Origin: Monosiga brevicollis MX1
Lineage: Eukaryota > Opisthokonta > Choanoflagellata > Craspedida > Salpingoecidae
Direction: 5' to 3'
DNA: 46,611 bases
NCBI RefSeq assembly: GCF_000002865.3
Contig: NW_001865043.1
Coordinates: 851,261-897,871, forward strand
The notes beneath the pieces are model-generated. The model was not told where the DNA came from, made no database searches, and saw only the letters and a list, made by a program, of their open reading frames with translations. Below are positions 1,878-45,735 of this stretch, piece after piece (positions within the stretch are counted from its first letter, which is position 1; each line of letters opens with the position of its first letter). The position numbers were made by a program, and so were the translations under genes.

Positions 1878-2348
1878 GATTTTCTGTTCCTTGTCTTTTG
1901 TGAGGCATTTATTTGGGTGCTGGGTGTCAAGTTGTCGTGAACGGCATCGGCACCGGCAAAGGCGATAGAGGTTTTCAACAGCTGGTGGCATCACCGGAGG
2001 GAAACCTTTCGTTTCATCTTCTCATTTTTTTTGCTGTTTCTTCTCGCGGATCCCTCGCAAAGGCGTCAGACCTGTCAAGATTCAAGCGAGGTGTGACCTG
2101 TCTGTTTTTTTGCGAGGTCTCCACCTTCCCCCACGTCGCCACTGCCCGTGGATGCCTCTGTCTATTCATCTACTCCCCCAGCCCGTCGGTGCAGTTCTCC
2201 CGTGGCCTCTGAAAGCTTCCTATCCCTGCTAGTGGCTCTGGTTCGACGGCTCGGGCACTCGGCGGCCAACGATAGTGCTACCCGACCCCACTACCCGCCT
2301 TGGGCTGCGAGCTGCCCCACGGTCCCCCTCGGTCCATTTGCCTCCAAG
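1380..2348. other. Intergenic: 3' flank of RING gene, T31 tract, 5' flank of PP2C gene
   Basis: A run of 31 T lies at 1846-1876. The frame of the next gene is open back to about 2148 but contains no ATG before 2349. This could be 5' UTR or an upstream exon I cannot see. No other coding signal was found. Confidence 0.5.
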
Positions 2349-3737
2349 ATGTGGGCCACTGGGCTGTGGGGGTTGTGTGGGCGCAGTCGCCTCCACGGTG
2401 CTGGTGTTGGGCCAGCTGGCTGGATGACCGCATGGCGCTTTCTGCGCGCGGGCCAGCGGGCAGCTTCTCCCATTCTCGAGTTTGACATTTTGACCAGCGA
2501 TGCGCGTGCTGCTGGTTGCGAATGCAACGCTCTGGTCAAGGTCGAGGGCTCGCGCAACTCATTTGAGGGACGCCTGCACCCCAAGTCTGGCCTTTTTGAG
2601 CGGGGACAGCGCGAAATCTTTCGCGAGCGCTGCGATGATCTCGGGCGCATTCGTGCTCTTGTCATCGGGCCTGACCGCCCAGGAAAGGACGATGGGTGGT
2701 TACTCAATTCGGTGATATTGCGCATTTTGGACGATGACAACCGTCTGCGCCGCGTTTTTACCTTTGAATGTAATCGGTGGCTGGGGGGCCGCCATGAGGC
2801 CAGCAACCCGACGCTGTCTGTCACACTCACACCCCAGCAGTCCGTCACACCCGATGAGGTGCGTCTCAAGACCCAGGAGAAGCCCCTGTCGCTGATCGTA
2901 CATTCAGTGGCTTACCCGCATCCGGATAAAGTCCAACAAGGCCGCAAGGGTCTAGTAGGCCGGATGCAAGGCTATGCTGGAGAGGACGCTTATGCCATCA
3001 GTCACGAAACTGGTCCTTTGCATGGCCTCTTCCTGGCCGACGGTGTACATGCCTGGCATAGTGAGGGCATTGATGCTGGCGCTTGGGCTCGGGAGCTAAC
3101 CCTTGGACTTGCACACCAACATGACAGCGCTGCCAGCGCCTATGCCAAAGCCCCACTCGCCGAGCGAGTCCGGCCCGGCTTGACCCTGGTGGAGATGGTG
3201 GAGCACGTGTATCAACAGCTCTTGACTGACGGTGTGCAGGGTAGCTCCACCCTGGTGAGTGCCTGCTTCGATGGCTCCACCGGCGCCCTCGACGTTTACA
3301 ATCTCGGGGATAGCGGCTTGAGCGTTTTGCGCCGGCGGGGTACCATTGGCGGTGCCGATGTCTATGGTGTACTGTACCGCACACCCGTTTTGGAGCACCG
3401 CTTTGGCTGTCCCTACCAGCTGGGCCACCATGCTCAGGGCGACACGCCAGAGGCGGGCCTCGTCAAAACACTGGCTCTACAGCCCGACGACATTGTTGTC
3501 ATGGGCAGCGACGGCTTGTGGGACAACTTGTTGCCGTCAGACATGGCGCGAATTTGTTCAGAGCCCAGTTCACGGCGAACCCTGCATCACCGGCTCGCCG
3601 CGGCTGCCTTTAATGTCAGTTTGGATCGTAACGCCGACTCACCCTTTGCACGTGAAGCCACGGAGGAGCTCAACATGTTCTACAGCGGCGGTAAGAAAGA
3701 TGATATCTCTGTGGTGGTGGCCATTGTGGAGAGCTGA
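2349..3737 (+). CDS. PLAT domain + PPTC7-like PP2C-family Ser/Thr phosphatase, probably mitochondrial
   Basis: Single exon, 462 aa. Residues 1-40 hold many Arg and no acidic residue, which suits a mitochondrial presequence. About 43-146 is a PLAT/LH2 domain: F-D-I-L-T-S-D opening, G-L-F-E-R-G-Q, D-L-G-R-I, D-D-G-W-L-L and a closing aromatic strand. About 185-462 is a PP2C phosphatase closest to PPTC7. It shows G-E-D-A-Y, F-L-A-D-G-V-H-A-W (metal-binding D231), N-L-G-D-S-G, M-G-S-D-G-L-W-D-N and G-K-K-D-D-I-S-V-V-V-A-I-V. All metal-binding Asp motifs are present, so it should be active. PPTC7 acts in the mitochondrial matrix and on its outer face; PLAT domains bind lipid or membrane proteins. 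The start is set by the first in-frame ATG; the open frame upstream contains no ATG. Fusion of the two domains is unusual, and no intron is needed to explain it. Confidence 0.88.
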   Translation: MWATGLWGLCGRSRLHGAGVGPAGWMTAWRFLRAGQRAASPILEFDILTSDARAAGCECNALVKVEGSRNSFEGRLHPKSGLFERGQREIFRERCDDLGRIRALVIGPDRPGKDDGWLLNSVILRILDDDNRLRRVFTFECNRWLGGRHEASNPTLSVTLTPQQSVTPDEVRLKTQEKPLSLIVHSVAYPHPDKVQQGRKGLVGRMQGYAGEDAYAISHETGPLHGLFLADGVHAWHSEGIDAGAWARELTLGLAHQHDSAASAYAKAPLAERVRPGLTLVEMVEHVYQQLLTDGVQGSSTLVSACFDGSTGALDVYNLGDSGLSVLRRRGTIGGADVYGVLYRTPVLEHRFGCPYQLGHHAQGDTPEAGLVKTLALQPDDIVVMGSDGLWDNLLPSDMARICSEPSSRRTLHHRLAAAAFNVSLDRNADSPFAREATEELNMFYSGGKKDDISVVVAIVES

Positions 3738-17166: not shown

Positions 17167-18201
17167 TTAGCGCACGAGGACCATGTGAGGATCGAGGTAA
17201 ATTTGCTCGTAACCATGGTCGATGGCGCACATGTGGAAGCTGAGGTGCTCGCAATCGTCACCCGAGTATTTGCAGTGGTCAAAGATGGAACGGTTGTAAA
17301 TGGCAAAGCCACCAAAGCAAGATTGCAGACGCAAGGCTGGGGTCTCGGGTCCAAGCTCAAGGGGATCGATAGCGGGCTCGCCGCAGGTAGAGCAGGCGTA
17401 ACGCACGCGATTGCCAGCCATGTCTTGAATGGCAAAGTCATCATAGTGACGGCGACCACCAAAGAGATGGACATGCCAATTGATACCATGCGCACAAACC
17501 ACGTCAAAGTTGAGACGAAAGGCTGCCTGAATAGCCCGCTCAGCAGGCAAAGTCACAAGGTCCATGTCCACCACAATGGCGTAGTCAGCCGTGTTGTAGG
17601 GAGCAGCGCGCATCATGTCCACTAGCCGATTGCGCAGCTTGGCCATGGCATAGGTGCGCCGTTTGCTCTTCTCTCCAAACTGAAAGGGAAGGGTGTCATC
17701 ATAGAGCTGGAGGCTAAGCGCGTGCACGTGATCATCCTCGCGAGCCAGCTGCCGTAGCAGGGCCGGCGTTTGATCCACCGAGTCATTTTCCAAGATGAGG
17801 ATTTGATAGTTTTTGAATAATTTGCCAATTTTGTGTAGGCTAGCCATGGTACGCGGCAACATCTGCTCGTTGTCGCGGCAAAGGCCCAAAATGACGACGG
17901 TAAACTCTTTCGGGCGGTCCTGAATGTGTTCAGGAAGGAGCTGCAGCATCGTGTCCTGGGCAATGGTGACGTCCGAATCAATAAAGGCGGCGTAGAGACG
18001 CCGGCCAGTCGTAAAGGTCCGCAATGGATAGCGCAGAGACAAGGCATGTAGCGAGAAGAAGGAGACGAGCACGAGGAGGACGGCGAGCACATTGCCCAGG
18101 GTGATGCGACAAGGCACGCCGCGGCAGGTAAAGGCAATGTGCAGCTGGCATACCCGCGCGAAACGATGGCGGAATATCGTAAATCGTCGCCACAGACTCA
18201 T
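17167..18201 (-). CDS. Type II membrane glycosyltransferase-like protein (GT-A fold)
   Basis: Single exon, 344 aa. A short basic cytoplasmic tail is followed by one membrane segment at about residues 35-55, so the catalytic part faces the Golgi lumen. The lumenal domain starts F-T-V-V-I-L-G-L-C-R-D-N and has I-L-I-L-E-N-D-S-x-D-x-T, as in transferases that read a nucleotide-sugar. V-V-D-M-D-L at 212-214 is the DxD metal/sugar site. Downstream, C-F-G-G-F-A-I-Y and C-E-H-L-S-F-H resemble eukaryotic and giant-virus enzymes related to fungal CAP59/mannosyltransferases. I cannot fix the CAZy family or the sugar. The neighbouring plus-strand gene is another Golgi transferase, transcribed divergently 843 nt away. 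The start ATG directly precedes the basic tail. Confidence 0.78.
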   Translation of the reverse strand: MSLWRRFTIFRHRFARVCQLHIAFTCRGVPCRITLGNVLAVLLVLVSFFSLHALSLRYPLRTFTTGRRLYAAFIDSDVTIAQDTMLQLLPEHIQDRPKEFTVVILGLCRDNEQMLPRTMASLHKIGKLFKNYQILILENDSVDQTPALLRQLAREDDHVHALSLQLYDDTLPFQFGEKSKRRTYAMAKLRNRLVDMMRAAPYNTADYAIVVDMDLVTLPAERAIQAAFRLNFDVVCAHGINWHVHLFGGRRHYDDFAIQDMAGNRVRYACSTCGEPAIDPLELGPETPALRLQSCFGGFAIYNRSIFDHCKYSGDDCEHLSFHMCAIDHGYEQIYLDPHMVLVR

Positions 18202-19044
18202 GACGGCTGCCCCACGTGCTCATTGGCACACCGGTACCGCGGAAGTGGGTAACACGGCGTGGGACCCTTGGCCGCTCACATCCACTGAATGCAATGTTCG
18301 GGCCCAGTGACTACCTGGCTTGTCCCATTGACCCCAGCTTCTTGCCGTCGGCGGGCAGCATGATTTGATCAACCCAAAGCAAGCGATCAGGGGCCATGGA
18401 CCGTGCACATTGGTGTTCCCCTCTTGTCAGTCGCACAACCAGAGCTTGCGCCGGCCCGGGCGCGCAGGCTGGTGTGGACAGACAGCGATGGGTCTGAGTT
18501 GCTTCGTTGACACAGCCAAGCAGCCCTAGTTGGTCAGGAAGTCAAAATCAATGCAATGAGAACAGGATGCAGTTGAACCCAGATTCAAAGTCAAGTCAAA
18601 ACGCCAGCGTCCCCCAAGAGGCGCACACCAACCGATCACTGCCGCTCACTGCACAAGAAGGAAATTATCTGATAAAAAAAAAACCGAAAGACAGAGAGAG
18701 AGCGAGACACACACACACACACACACACCAACACAAATTATTTTATTTTTATTTTTATTGAACTTTTCCCAGTGCGTGCTCATTATTAAACCGAAAAATA
18801 CAAAAATAAAAACAGCAACAACAGCAGTAAACGTCTGACATTGACGAGCTGAATAATTTTTTGTTTTTTTGGGTGCACCGGCAGTTAACGAGTTTACCGG
18901 CAGATGGCTGGTGGCGAGTGGCAAATGGCGAATGGCTGCGAGGGACGCAGTGCAGTGCATGGTGTTGAGGTTGTGAGTGTGCGGATATAGCTGTGGCAAG
19001 AGGTAAAAGCAGCCTGAAGGTACATGCGGTGAAGATCGTGCAGC
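18202..19044. other. Shared divergent promoter region of two glycosyltransferases
   Basis: 843 nt between two start codons facing away from each other. It holds an (AC)n repeat at 18707-18728 and an A/T-rich part at about 18735-18870. Promoter elements cannot be pinpointed. Confidence 0.5.
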
Positions 19045-36822: not shown

Positions 36823-37221
36823 TCACAACAGCAGCGACACCTTGCTGGGCACAACCAAGATGCCATGACCGGCCGGACACGTAAAATAAGTATAGCCCTG
36901 TAGCCAAACAGACAGCAAGTTGGAGGGGTCAGCGAAGCGATTGATACCAACACGCACAAAGAGTGCTGCATGAGGAGAGGCAGGGCCGCCCATATGTTCG
37001 GTGCACGTCTCGGGAACACGGTTGAAACAGCGTGCGACCGTCCCTGGGATTACAAAAAAAACTCACCGACACAGTGCCATCGTTGCGGCCTTCGGGTTCG
37101 TCCAGTTCGACGCCGCAGCGCACGCCACCCTTCTCGTGGTGATGGCCATAAAAGCGAAGGTAGCCGAGCGAGCGATAGCCTTGCACCACGACACGCTTGC
37201 CAATGTCATGCTCGGCCACAA
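36823..37221 (-). other. CAP-Gly domain exons of the receptor kinase
   Basis: Two exons (37221-37067 and 36897-36823) encode H-D-I-G-K-R-V-V-V, G-V-R-C-G-V-E-L-D-E-P, then G-R-N-D-G-T-V-S (the canonical G-K-N-D-G with K to R) and G-Y-T-Y-F-T-C-P-A-G-H-G-I-L-V. CAP-Gly domains bind EEY/F tails of tubulin, EB1 and CLIP-170. Stop is at 36823-36825. Confidence 0.85.
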
Positions 37222-40200
37222 CTACGCACACAAATACAAACACAAAGCCAGACACATTTGATGAATGCTCTTGCTCCCAAGTTTGCACCCAGACCAGACA
37301 ACTACAAACTCAACTCTAGGACATCAAACAGCAACTGTTTCCAAGACTCAAGCAGACGCACCTCGCTGTTCTTGGGGCGCCGTCGTGTCCATGTTGCCAT
37401 AAAAGTCATCCTGCCACAACAGTACATCAAACGTACACGATGACACCACATGCACGACAGGCGCAAGCGCACACCGCTACAGAGAACGCCATGTGATGCA
37501 GTGTGACTCCGAGACGTACCGCAGCAGCACCCGAAAGAATGGAGGCACTGCCTTCTGAAAAACCGCCCTCGGAGAAGCCGCCCTCGGAAGACTGAAAGCT
37601 GCTGCTCTTTTCAATTCCTCGCCGAGGACGCACCGTGGACGTGGCGCCAATCATCCCAGCGCCATCAAACCCGGTGGACTCAAAGTCCGGGTCCACAGAG
37701 GCCTCCGCCGTGTCCTGCGTGGGCTCTCCGCCTCCCAGGTCGTACAGCGCCATGCCTTCGCCGTCCCCTCCGACTGTGTCACTGGCAAATGTATCGTTTG
37801 CACCCATATCATAAAGGGCCATACCATCATCTGAGCCCATCAACCGCGCCTCAAGATAGCTCTGATCCACACTGTCTTTGTAGCCGCGGTTTCCAACACG
37901 ACGCGGAACGGCGGGTGTTTCTTGCGTTGATGAGTTGCCAACGCTCAAGTACTCATCTGCATCATCTGCAGTAAGCGGTGCATCAATACAATACGCACCC
38001 AACCAGTGAGGCGCCAAAGAAACATGGGGGGGCAGGACAGTTGGAGACAGTTGGAAGGTCAGAGAGGAGGCCAAAGCAAATGGAATAGCTGTCTTCTCAG
38101 TTCAAAACCATGTTCACCTGCCCAAGCTACTTTCATACCGCCCTCACTCACCCTCGCCCCTCCTTGCCTCCCTTCGCCTTCCTCGCCTAGCTCGTGATCC
38201 ACCAAAGTATACTACCCACAAGCAAGATCCAAACGCACCTCCGTCAAGGGACATGCTAAGAAGCTCTTCCAGGCGCTCGACAACTCCACTAAAGTCGGGG
38301 CGCTCCTTGGGATTCATACTCCACATGTCATTCAACAGGTCACAGAGCTCCGTGGGCGTGCCTGTGGGTGGCTGCAGCTTATAGCCGGCACACACCTCCA
38401 CCCACACCCGCTGGTTGGACCAGCCGTCGTAGGGCAAAGCGGCTCTGGTCAAGATCTCATAGAAGAGGATTCCACCGGCCCAAACATCACTCTTTTCGGA
38501 AAACTTGCGCTCCTCCATGGCCTCAGGCGCCGTCCATCGAATAGGGATCTGGCTCGAGGTGGCACGGTAATATGTCTCCTCGGCGCCGCCGTCTGCTTCA
38601 CGCGCCAAGCCAAAGTCGGCCACCTTGGCCGTCAGGTCCGAGGACACGAGCACGTTGCGGGCAGCCACGTCGCGGTGCACAAAGTTGTAGGCATGAATGT
38701 GCTCCAGTCCACGGGCAGCATCCAGAGCAAAGCGGAGCTTTTGGTGTTGTGTCAAATCGTGCTTCTCAAGATAGCCCTTAAGGGCGCCCTTCTCGCAAAA
38801 CTCAATGACGACCAAGATGGGTCGACCCACGGTTACCACGCCCACAAGTTTGACAACGTTACGGTGATTGAACTGAGCCATCACGGCAGCTTCTTCCAGC
38901 AGCTCTTGACGCGCTTTCTCATCAGCGGCATCGTGCAAGCTCTTGACAGCCACCAAAAAGCCAGGGTTCGGCGGTTCTTCCAGTAAACCCTTGTAGACAA
39001 GACCAAAAGCACCCCGGCCCAGTTCCTCAAGCAAGGTCAGACACTGGCGACGCAGCTCACGCGGCACTTTAACGTCGCCGTCAGAGTTCTTGAGCTGATC
39101 AATCATAGCAAAGACCTGGTCCCAATCCGCGGGCTGTCGGCGGCGCTGACGCTGCCGATATAAAACCAGCACCAGCACGAGCACCAAGAGCAGGAGGAGG
39201 CCAGCGCCGGCACCCGCACCGATGAGGCTGGTGCTGTCCTGAGGGTTAGCCGAGCCCTGTCCGCTGGCAGTGTTGTTGCTGTTGGTAGCAGCGGTGACAT
39301 CGACGTGAACAACACAAGTCACAGCGTTGTTCGCAGCGTCGCTCACCACGATAACCACGGTAGTTCGTCCTGTAGGCAAGGCTGCTGCCGTATTATTGTC
39401 TGATACAAACACGCTGCCACTGTTGTCCTCCGCCAAGGGCAAAGTATAGTTGTAGACAACGTTGGGCGAGGCGGCCGTGCTCACCAACGCAACCGGGGAC
39501 GTGGGGCAGATGACGCGCGGAGGCTGCTCGTCTCGCACAACCACCGGCACCATCACGGTCTGAGAATTGCCATAGGCATCGCGTACCGTCGCGTTGACAG
39601 ACGCAGAACCGATGGGCACCTGAACCTGCTGATTGCCGGGTGTGATCCAGGTCAGAGGAAGGCCTGAGTTGTCATCGAGCATTTGCAGCAGGCCACTGCG
39701 GTTTACTGTCGCATACGCCTGGTCCTCGTCGGCCACAACAATCATATTGCTGGCCGGCGTCAACACAGGAGGGGTCTCATCTTCAACTGAGAGCGCAAAA
39801 CTGCACGTTGTGCTTCGGCCGTAGTAATCTCGAACCACGTACTTGATCTGCAGGGGTGGTGTGTGGGGGGCGAGGATCGAAGCCAGAAGCGACTGCGCCA
39901 ACGTGATGGCCGTGACATTACCCGTGCTGCCAATCAGGTACTGCTCAAGGGGTGGGTCGGCGAGACGAATGTCGTCTGAATAGGTGGGCCGAGGCCAGGA
40001 AAATGCAACGGCGTTGGAATTGCTCGGCAACACGCGCGTCAGGTTACTCGAACAACCGTGCAGAGTTGGATCCACAAAGTCGGTGATCAGCAGGAAGGGC
40101 GACGAGTTGATCGGCAGCGGCCCGTCCAGACCACGAGACAGCAAGAAAAAGCTACTTGTGTCCAGGGTCAGCTGGCTGGTGACGGAGGCCAGCGCATTTG

Positions 40201-43200
40201 CGTACTGGATCTTAAGCTGCACTCCCGTAAAGTTGAAGCGACAGTCAAAGGTTTGGGTGCGCGCGCGCACCCACAGCGTCGAACTCGCCCCATCGCCGCG
40301 AATTCCAACATTGGCCGAAGTGAGCACCGTTTGCGCCAACGGTGCCACACAGCTTGCTGCATCCTGCTCGAGAATTTGCAGATTAAAAAATTGATACGAA
40401 AGAGAGACTCCATCTACCGGGGCCACAGCCACGGCAGCGTCCAGGTTCCAGTTCATGCTGATGTCAAAGAAACTGATGAGCTCATCCCCATCAGGCCGCA
40501 CCTCGATGGCCTCGCCCCCGGGGGTCGTCAGATTGATGATGACTGAGCTGTAAAGACTCAAATCCACGCTGGGGACGGAGAGGCTTGCGTCGAAGACGTC
40601 CACCAGGTCGTACTGCTCATAAATCACGTCCGAGAAGGGACGGGTTACGCTTTGGCCTGATAAGGCAAGGTCCAGGTCTGCGGCGATGACAAGCGGCTCC
40701 CCCGCAAGCTCGAGGACAACGGTGAACTCGCACGTCGCAGTACGACCACTCAGATCCACGGCCGTGTAGATGACGTTGAAGGGAGAGTCCGTCATGTCCA
40801 GGGTATCACCTGGGGCATAGTTGGAATGGGTTTCCCGCAGGCCCACGTTATCTGTGGCCTGCGGCTCAGTCCAGTCTGCAGTGGTGCTCAGCGTTGGCTG
40901 AGACACGAGATATGTAATCCGCCCAGTTGGGCAACCAACCCAACGCGGGTCCACGAGGTCTTCGAGTGCCAGGTATTGCGCCAAGAGAAGGTCCTGCTCG
41001 GAACTCGTCGTGACACCGTACTCAACGCCCATGATGGCAGCAGTGGGTTGATAGACAGCGGCGGCACGACGGCGGCGATCGATGGAACCAGAACCCAGGG
41101 AAGCAAGCGGCAGCACAATATCCACCGCTTCCCAAAATAGCTCTTCTGCCAGAGCTGAAGACCGCGCTGCAATACGCAGGCATCGTTCGTCGTCCAGAGC
41201 ACCCGAACCTTGGTCAGTAAAGGAAACTTGAGCCGACGTGGCGAGAGAAATGGTGGCGGGCAAGCTGACAAAATTGTCCTCCTGGCCCGTGAAGGTACCG
41301 GAACTGCACCAAATAAGGTCGATATCCACATGGGCCGACACGTTCGCATGGCGAGTGAGCGTAAACGGACGCCCGCTGGGGCTGCTTACACCAATTGCCA
41401 AATCCTCATCAAATAGCGAGCCGGTGATTGAGAATGTAGGCGGGGTTAGCATGCCCAAGACGGACTCAAAGTCCTCCAAGAAGAGGTCTTGTGAAGCCTG
41501 TCGCGAGAGCAAGTTGCGATGCCGCAGCTGACGAGCCTGTAAGTCAAAGCCTCGACGCACAGTGATGGAGAAGTTGCAAAATGGCCGAGTGCCCAAATCG
41601 GGCTGCGGTCCCATGAAGAAGAGTGCCGTCGTGCCAACGGGATACTCCTCGTTGGGAGGCATGTTGGTGGCCTCGTAGGCCGCGCCGCCAGGCAATGTAG
41701 GCTCTGTCACCTCGATGGTGGCATGCGATGAGGAAGTCGCAATGTAATAAACCCCGTCCGAGGGGCATTGAATAAAGTCCATGAAGACCAGCGAGATGGT
41801 CCGTCTGGAGGAGCAACCTCCGTCGATGAGGCCCGTGGTCAGCTGACAACGCACTCGGCTGTCCGTGGCTTGAACAACCACAGTGCCGTAGCTAGCCTCG
41901 GGTTGTCCCACGATGAAGAGTAAGCCGGTCGAGGCGTCAACAGTCACATAGCTGGCCGCACCGCCCGAGGACTCGGCGATGTGGTAGGTCACGCTGAGAT
42001 TCGACTGGTCAGGATAAGCAGAGGCATTAAGAATGATTGTACCCTGGGCCAGGGTGGTGGAAACGGTGCGAGAGGCAATTGTGTTGTAGAACTGTGGCGG
42101 GGTAACGGCCGGAACGCATTGCAATGAGTCTTGCACGTAGTTGACCGCACATGCTTCGCAAGTTTGCATTTGGAAAAAGTGGGCGCTAGGCAAGTTGCGA
42201 TAGACCGTGGTGGAGAATCTGGAAGGAGGGAAGAAAAACAGACACCGTCCAGGATGATACAGTGAGACAACACTTGGTGCCAGGAAAGGAAATGGAGAAG
42301 AAGAGAGAAAAACAAAGGAGAGGGGGGGCCGAGACACCTTGCAGCCCTGGAAACGTACGCTGATTTGAGGCAACACTGGCCCGCAATGTCTGATGAAGCA
42401 GCAACACTATAAATGGTAAAGGCTACGCAGGAGGCATCCGCACTGCAGCGATCTCGGCAGTCGTAGATGACCTCCTGGTCAGATTGATAAGCGACAGTGG
42501 GTGCATAGCACGCTGCTCCGGTCGAGGTTGGAATGCCAGTCATGGTTCGCGGCTCGCCATCAGCACGAAGGTACAGAATTCCATCATAGGCTGGCTGGCT
42601 GACGCAACGGGCACAAGCGCTATCCGTGCACGAACAGCTACTGCCGGTCTCAGAATCGCTGCCAGCCACACACGTGACCAAATCAACGCAGACGCGATCC
42701 GTGGTTGGGGTTGGTGCCTTGACGGCCAGCTCTGTGCCACAGTCCGTGGCAGAGAGACATGACGTGGCGTAAGCGGAAGGCTGATACTTGCCACTCGGGC
42801 AAGCCTCGCACTTGCGATCTGATGCTACGGTTGGAGCAACGGCCTCGTAGGTGCCGGCCGTGCATGTCGTGTGGGGCGCACACGACGTCAGCGTCGCGTC
42901 GCGATAGTATCCTTGCCTGCAAGCCTAAAGTACAACCATACGTCACCATGAGGAGATGAGGCGGCATCGAATCGCAGCGATCACCACACGGTATGCTTGG
43001 GCCAGCCCTTGATGCCTGCCACACTTCGCAACGTGTAGCGGAGCTAATAAGCAAGCAAGCAAGCATACCTCGCACACGCGGTTTGAGATGAGAGTGGGGG
43101 CCGTGTACTCCTCCTCACCGACGCTGCAAACGGTCACCGGTTGGCATTGCGCAGCGTTAATGGCGGAGCTGAAGGTAGCACCCAGACTACAGCTCTGGCA

Positions 43201-45735
43201 TTCGCGATTCGAAGTCACCGTCGGGTAGACAGTCACATAGGAGCCAGCAGCACAGGTGGTATGCGGAGTGCACTGCGCGGCATTGTTGGTCGTTGAGAAG
43301 GCATCCCCGGGACAGGCCACACAGCTACGGTCATTGCTGATGGATGGTTGGCCTTGTACAAAGCTACCGGGGGCACAGATTCGATGCGGAGCACACGAAC
43401 TCAAACCGGCCACTTCAGCAAAAGACGTCGAGTTGCACGGTGTGCACGCGAGTTGGTTGATGGAGGAAGCCACATATCCAGCTTCGCAGCGTCGGCACAC
43501 GCGATCCGTTGAGGACGTCGGTTGAGTGGCTACCTCGTAGCCTGTGGGGCAAGTGGCAAGGTCTTGACAGCTCTCCTGGCCACGGCTGGCCGAGAACTTA
43601 CCGGCGGGGCAAGCAGCACAGGCCCCGTCGCTAATATACGTGCCAGCTTCACAAGACGACGTGTTGACAAAGCAGGTCAGCGCTCCTTCATTCGAGGACT
43701 TGCCCTCTGGGCAAGTTGTGCACGATGCGGCATCGGCCGTCGCGCTATAGGTGCCCGCTGCACAAGCCTCACAGGTGCGATCCGTCGACGAAGTCGGTGT
43801 GGCCGCTACAAAAGTGCCGGCGGTGCAGGTGGTAACGCGAGTACATTGCGTCGCACCCGAAATTTCCGCAAAATAGCCGATACTGCACATGCTGCACGAT
43901 GCACAGCGCTCGGTACCACAAAAGGTGCCGGGCACACAGCGTGCACACGCGCCGATGGTACGTGGTTTCGCGGCGTAAAAGCCTGGCGAGCAACTATAGC
44001 GCTGTGCCTGGCCCACGCCAGTGCCCACGTAGTAACCGGGGCCTGGATCCTTGCAACTGCTTGCATCAATGACATCACTGTAGGTGCCCTCAGGGCAGCT
44101 GAAGCACTGGCCGTTGTAGCCATAGTGTCCTTTACCACAGTCAACGCAGTTGGTCTTGTCAAAGCTAGCCTTGGTGCCGTTGGGGCAGAGTACGCAGGCA
44201 GTGGAACCGGGCTGTGGCTGGGCACTGGCGTCGCTGCATGCGGTGCATGACCCTCCCGTTCCAGCAGTGCCAGCCGGGCACTGCACGCACAAAGTTCGAT
44301 CATTGTTCGATGTGGTGCCGTCAGCACATGTGGTGCAAGATGTTTGGCCAAGCTGTGCTTGGTAGCTACCAGCGGCGCAAATGAGACAAGAGGCGTACGC
44401 TTGGCCATCATTGGGAGTGTAACTGCCAACGGCACATTTCTTGCAATTGGCCGAAACGGTTCCATCTTGGTACTGTCCGTTATTGCAGGGTCTGCACGAG
44501 GTGGCACCCATAACGTTCTGATAGGTACCCTCTGGACAACTTAGACAAGTGGCTTGGCTCGTTTGGTTTTGATAGCGACCAGTACTGCACGGAGAGCAGG
44601 TGGCGCTGCCGGCCAATGGTGCTTCAGTACCCACAGGACAAGCCAGGCACTGTGTGCTGCTTGTGCCCCCAGTCGCGTCACGCATCGTCCCTGCCGGGCA
44701 AGCCTTGCACTCGCTCTGGCCTGTCGAATCCTGATAATAACCCTTGGCACATGTTTGGCATGTGCGGTCGGATGATGATGTCGGTGCCACAGTCTCGTAG
44801 GATCCGGCAGAGCAGGCTGCGCTGTGGGCTGAGCATGTTGCTGCGTTCGTTGTAGAACTGTACTTGCCTGAAGAATCCAAGGGTGTCAAGTCCACCAGCA
44901 TATGGACGTGAGAGCTCGGACAGTGTGCTGGGCCTGAGATGACCGGCAAGTTGAATGAACGGTCGCACTTACCGGCTTCGCATGCCTCGCACAGATGCCC
45001 GGTTTTCAAGGTCCCTGGGGGGCAAGTGGCGTCAGAATCTTCCACACATGATGTGGACCCAGCCACGGAGGTGTACCCGGCGGCGCAAACCTAAGCCGGC
45101 CACAGACAGATTGAAATACAAGTTCGATGCAACGAAAATGGTCGACATGTAAGTGCAGCCAAGGATGTAGTCCTGCCGGCTAAGGGCAAGCACACAGCTG
45201 GATGCTTGAGTGGGTGCGAGAGCCTGAAACGTACTCTGCAAGACTCGGCATTTTCCACTGTGCTGTAGGTACCCGCAGGGCAATCGCGGCACACGCGGTC
45301 AGTCGAAGCCGTAAAGCTAGTTTCCACAAACTTGCCGGCGGTGCAGGTCGAGGGGTCGCGACAATTCACTGTGCCAGGAGAGGGGGCCACCTTGCCATTG
45401 TAACAAGCCTAGACCACAAGTATGACCGGATGAGGGGCGCTTGGGTGCTTTTGTAGAAGCAGGTCGTGCTGCCACTCACATTGCAGTCGTAGGTGATACC
45501 CAAGCTGGCGCTAGCCTTGCCGATGGGGCATGCTGTGCAGCTACCCACACTGCCTTGCGTCGAGTAGGTACCTCGGGGACAGTACAGCATTTCTGTTTGG
45601 CCCACCTCGGCAAGAACGTAGTAGCCACCTTGCACGGCTACTCAGCCCCATTGAAAATGGTCCGAAGCGTATAAGCATGCGCAAGTCGAACAATTACAGT
45701 ACAACTCTCAAACGCCTCGTTGTACAACATACTTT

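Follow-up and report, generated by a model that had tools for sequence, protein, structure and literature searches.

Our analysis confirms, as far as the sequence can tell, that the minus strand of the window (the whole stretch of 46,611 nucleotides from Monosiga brevicollis MX1 that was analysed) carries one gene for a receptor tyrosine kinase with a C-terminal CAP-Gly domain; in all likelihood it is among the ten members of the RTKC family. It seems to us probable that the tail of this single RTKC receptor is phosphorylated by its own kinase and that the CAP-Gly domain is a docking module of changed specificity; a domain that still reads the canonical EEY/F terminus appears less likely than one with changed specificity. 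As the receptor family has already been described, what is added here is the residue-level divergence of the CAP-Gly domain, which is a modest but testable addition.

Five exons that the first-pass annotation had proposed have GT-AG borders and the phases 1, 0, 1, 0, and join in frame to a spliced reading frame that ends ...KVSLLL-TGA. They sum to 4705 nt, the first base of which is the end of a codon from an upstream exon, and the remaining 4704 nt equal 3 x 1568. The large exon (38239–42218) had been termed the kinase exon. The kinase is indeed found there, but the label is incomplete, as the exon encodes part of the ectodomain with HYR domains, a transmembrane helix with the approximate position 39158–39220 (GAGAGAGLLLLLVLVLVLVLY, hydropathy maximum 2.91), the juxtamembrane region, and the tyrosine kinase domain (38240–39040) with the motifs GRGAFG, VAVK, HRD, DFG, and APE. 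The tyrosine-rich tail exon (37520–37965) follows with the tail sites LYDMG (37802–37816) and LYDLG (37733–37747), then an exon of 49 nt (37362–37410) that reads DDFYGNMDTTAP... and finally the two CAP-Gly exons, the first extending to GRNDGTVS (37067–37221) and the second from GYTYFTC to KVSLLL and the stop codon (36823–36897). Upstream of the large exon there are a Cys-rich ectodomain exon (42359–42924, TNFR_c6 with 33.1 bits, entered in phase 0 and left in phase 2) and a block of Cys-rich ectodomain exons (43069–45090, five Ephrin_rec_like stretches and TNFR_c6, with one 105-nt intron in the model). All these features are on the minus strand. The gene model from position 45090 comprises 2395 residues with 0 internal stops, and further exons are expected upstream of 45090.

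On the joined protein Pfam reports the tyrosine kinase with 268.7 bits and CAP_GLY with 70.7 bits over the full length of the profile (positions 1–65, cut-off 26.5). When the CAP-Gly domain is read through its intron the match is reduced to 47.5 bits and profile positions 1–61, that is, splicing raises the score. The ectodomain has Ephrin_rec_like and TNFR_c6 matches in the upstream exons and HYR domains in the large exon; no Ephrin_lbd match was found in the ectodomain pieces scanned, which belong to the model from 45090 on. Among structures in the PDB the best match of the CAP-Gly domain is CLIP3 (CLIPR-59, 2cp0) with 54.4 bits, and for the kinase RTKC8 (8E4T) ranks first of 813 matched sequences with 285 bits, followed by 9p9u with 277.2 bits. 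Elsewhere in the window, a single open reading frame on the plus strand (2097–3734) has PLAT/LH2 and SpoIIE-type phosphatase matches, and an open reading frame on the minus strand (17170–18219) has CAP59_mtransfer and glycosyl transferase family 2 matches.

The paralogues show how kinase and CAP-Gly domain are connected. Scanning the genome (39.5 Mb, 57 contigs) yielded 31 CAP_GLY hits that were merged to 28 domains by joining three split pairs. At seven further loci, one each on contigs C49, C53, C34, C33, and C51 and two on C21, a similar kinase is followed by a CAP-Gly domain on the same strand, and in five of these seven (C49, C53, C34, C33, and C51) a single uninterrupted frame runs from the kinase through the initial part of the first CAP-Gly domain. 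A phase-0 CAP-Gly intron after GTVx is common to the window gene and the same five genes; RTKC8 and L015 are without an intron at this place, and the paralogue L009 (C49:786500-796400) has two CAP-Gly domains, the mid-tail one with and the C-terminal one without it. In the paralogue L013 (C51), kinase, tail, and the first part of the CAP-Gly domain are encoded in one unspliced frame. Here YGNVDTSAP is the counterpart of YGNMDTTAP of the 49-nt exon, the two tails match in blastp with 123 bits and 35% identity, and in the MAFFT alignment EDYLSV after the L013 kinase is placed at DEYLSV just past the kinase–tail junction of the window gene, a short match outside the blastp stretch. Thus, the unspliced matches in L013 support the junctions of the window gene, the kinase–tail junction through this short match only.

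One could instead divide the locus into two genes, a receptor tyrosine kinase with the tail exon as its last and a separate short CAP-Gly gene that starts from the ATG of GNMD, as introns part the exons here and this ATG is in frame. However, kinase and first CAP-Gly part share one open frame in five of the seven paralogues, the Met of GNMD is a Val in L013 in frame with its kinase, and RTKC8 has been published as a single protein with kinase and CAP-Gly (PMC10263333). We therefore reject the division into two genes, which the paralogues with a single frame make hardly credible. A merely accidental adjacency is rejected as well, since for 11 such kinases 0.008 cases of a CAP-Gly domain within 2 kb downstream on the same strand are expected by chance and 8 are observed, the expectation being a Poisson value for random placement that ignores the linkage inherited among paralogues. 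The in-frame splicing and the five paralogues with a single frame thus bear out the proposal of the first-pass annotation that one gene encodes a receptor tyrosine kinase with a C-terminal CAP-Gly domain.

This architecture had been presented as if it were new, which does not hold, as it has already been published as the RTKC family. According to Bajaj et al. (2023, PMC10263333) this family has ten members in Monosiga brevicollis, most of them with Cys-rich and HYR ectodomains, a transmembrane segment, the kinase, and a tail with CAP-Gly. In the CC-licensed literature, as far as its text was accessible, we found no description of a choanoflagellate kinase with CAP-Gly beyond PMC10263333, and the accessible part of PMC6993872 mentions neither CAP-Gly nor RTKC. 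The window gene agrees with the family in the organism, in its nearest kinase, in the combination of Cys-rich regions, HYR domains, and transmembrane helix, and in the CAP-Gly domain of its tail. In addition, three published RTKC8 tail peptides are found exactly in the locus L014 of the same genome, which identifies L014 as RTKC8. In the study by Yeung (2021, PMC8662651), RTKC and Eph are joined in one clade.

PMC3583065 lists F52, W57, K68, N69, and R90 of dynactin1 as the residues that bind EEY/F. We use the numbering of p150Glued throughout, and the dynactin sequence served for mapping the columns. In the window domain F52 is replaced by Glu, W57 by Arg, and R90 by Val, the change of K68 to Arg is conservative, and N69 is unchanged. 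The same picture emerges from the 11 RTKC-type domains, a set made up of nine domains from eight RTKC genes and those of the loci L016 and L020: F52, W57, and R90 are kept in none of them, K68 in 2/11 (Lys or Arg in 5/11), and N69 in all. The replacements are uniform at several positions, with Arg instead of W57, Leu instead of F88, which we take to be a groove residue as well, and His two residues after the Gly, each in 11/11. The Fisher value for Arg57 is 5e-8 and is descriptive only, because related domains are treated as independent.

For comparison, the genome has 17 CAP-Gly domains outside the RTKC type. Trp is found at position 57 in 11 of them by script and in 12 by hand, the other residues being two Tyr, one Phe, one His, and one Leu; the script gives Arg for domain b of L027, an artefact of joined exon pieces, as the residue five positions from F52 is Trp. 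F52 is kept in nine of the 14 domains in which it is readable (unreadable in three), K68 in 10/17, and N69 in 8/17, while for F88 and R90, both unreadable in four, the counts are 10/13 and 4/13. With these frequencies outside the RTKC type N69 and R90 are weak markers, which softens the argument, and the case for an altered groove would be carried by F52, W57, and F88.

The first-pass annotation had suggested that the CAP-Gly domain tethers the receptor to microtubule ends or senses tubulin tyrosination. This reading is weakened, as four of the five listed residues differ, N69 being the one that stands. The microtubule suggestion, there as well as in print, draws on the usual role of CAP-Gly domains, and each of the 11 RTKC-type domains has lost most of the residues that bind EEY/F. 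Still, binding to EEY/F of tubulin or of plus-end proteins has points in its favor: the family match of 70.7 bits is clear of the cut-off, N69 is invariant in the RTKC-type domains and position 68 is Lys or Arg in 5/11 of them, and a cytoskeletal role of RTKC, or an interaction with the cytoskeleton, is suggested in PMC10263333, which cites Manning 2008 for it. Moreover, one alpha-tubulin of the genome (L035, called alpha from its sequence) ends with GAEEY, so the canonical ligand is present in the cell; EB1 (L041, C44), provided that the exon considered is the final one, has PEEAY and not EEY/F at its end. Against this stands the replacement of F52, W57, F88, and R90 throughout the RTKC type, in contrast to the three aromatic positions elsewhere in the genome, and we consider tethering through EEY/F unlikely. 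The CAP-Gly domain could also be a relic which folds, binds nothing, and serves as a stable C-terminal cap. Most groove residues are lost, and two RTKC-like kinases on the same strand of C22 (L017 and L018, 266500-285000), in which DLG replaces DFG, have no CAP-Gly hit in the genome-wide scan. Decay, however, would hardly leave replacements as conserved as Arg57, Leu88, and the His after the Gly, nor would it be expected to preserve the domain in eight receptor genes; this explanation we regard as quite improbable.

Thus, we favor a CAP-Gly domain of changed specificity, because F52, W57, F88, and R90 are replaced in every RTKC-type domain. Two observations speak against it: with N69 invariant and Arg57 and Arg68 basic, acidic tails could still bind, and the alpha-tubulin with its EEY end offers the canonical ligand in the genome.

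In vitro, the RTKC8 kinase uses peptides of its own tail as substrates (PMC10263333), and of three peptides the one with LYDMG, the motif that also occurs in the window tail, is phosphorylated fastest. YD-x-G motifs are present in the tails of five of six modelled genes and absent from L011, and in the same six proteins only 1 occurs ahead of the kinase HRD motif, in a total of 6254 residues; these counts span six of the eight RTKC genes, as for RTKC8 and L015 there are no full models. One RTKC8 substrate peptide, GTVGEHEYFDCADQH, sits inside the RTKC8 CAP-Gly domain at the position of GYTYFTC in the window gene. We suggest that a ligand or a contact on the ectodomain would bring receptors together, that the kinase would then phosphorylate tail tyrosines such as those in LYDMG and LYDLG, much as RTKC8 does with its own LYDMG peptide in vitro, and that the CAP-Gly domain would dock peptides with a specificity shifted away from the canonical EEY/F C-terminus, its new partner probably being another acidic or cytoskeletal one. 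A more daring proposal, to which we assign only a slim chance, is that the RTKC-type CAP-Gly domains form a distinct receptor-associated subclass in which the Trp-to-Arg pocket recognizes, in place of EEY/F, a tyrosine tail that is acidic or phosphorylated, perhaps the LYDMG of the receptor itself or of its neighbor. If so, the kinase activity would write the ligand that the CAP-Gly domain reads.

The RTKC-type CAP-Gly domain is also found apart from kinases. One frame of the locus L016 (C31:398000-407900, minus strand) combines a TNFR_c6 match with a transmembrane helix of hydropathy 3.37 and a CAP-Gly domain of the RTKC type; the product is a large membrane protein with the CAP-Gly domain in its presumed cytoplasmic tail. 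Pfam detected no kinase in its 2407 residues, nor did tblastn of the window kinase against the 9.9 kb of the locus. At L020 (C32) there is another CAP-Gly domain of this type, again without a kinase match in 6.5 kb. Thus, the subclass is not restricted to kinases. In a CAP-Gly tree of the 11 RTKC-type domains, the complete ones (7/17) of the other domains of the genome, and three human domains, the RTKC-type domains form a clade (99/95) with L016 and L020 nested among them, so that the tree is compatible with shuffling in either direction. A single gain of the CAP-Gly domain in one kinase clade is unsupported: in the kinase tree five of 11 inner branches are unresolved, no CAP-Gly clade is seen, and the outgroup branches are long with L030 placed inside. 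If the binding has indeed changed, these receptors would show how an adaptor domain has been adapted to receptor signalling in unicellular organisms closely related to animals.

Among known systems, RTKC8 (XM_001750163.1; kinase structure 8E4T) resembles the window gene in species, Cys-rich and HYR ectodomain, transmembrane segment, Eph-like kinase, tyrosine-rich tail with YDMG sites, and a CAP-Gly domain in the tail. In RTKC8, however, this domain lies mid-tail, is followed by YDMG repeats, and has no GTVx intron, whereas in the window gene it forms the very C-terminus and contains the intron. Eph kinases take the next PDB ranks after RTKC8 and 9p9u (an entry named EGFR), but the window gene has HYR domains and no Ephrin_lbd match in the ectodomain pieces scanned, and we know of no Eph receptor with a CAP-Gly domain. 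The CAP-Gly domain itself is shared with p150Glued (dynactin1), CLIP3, CLIP4, and CEP350, none of which is a receptor to our knowledge; these four proteins keep F52, W57, and F88, whereas the RTKC-type domains are devoid of all three.
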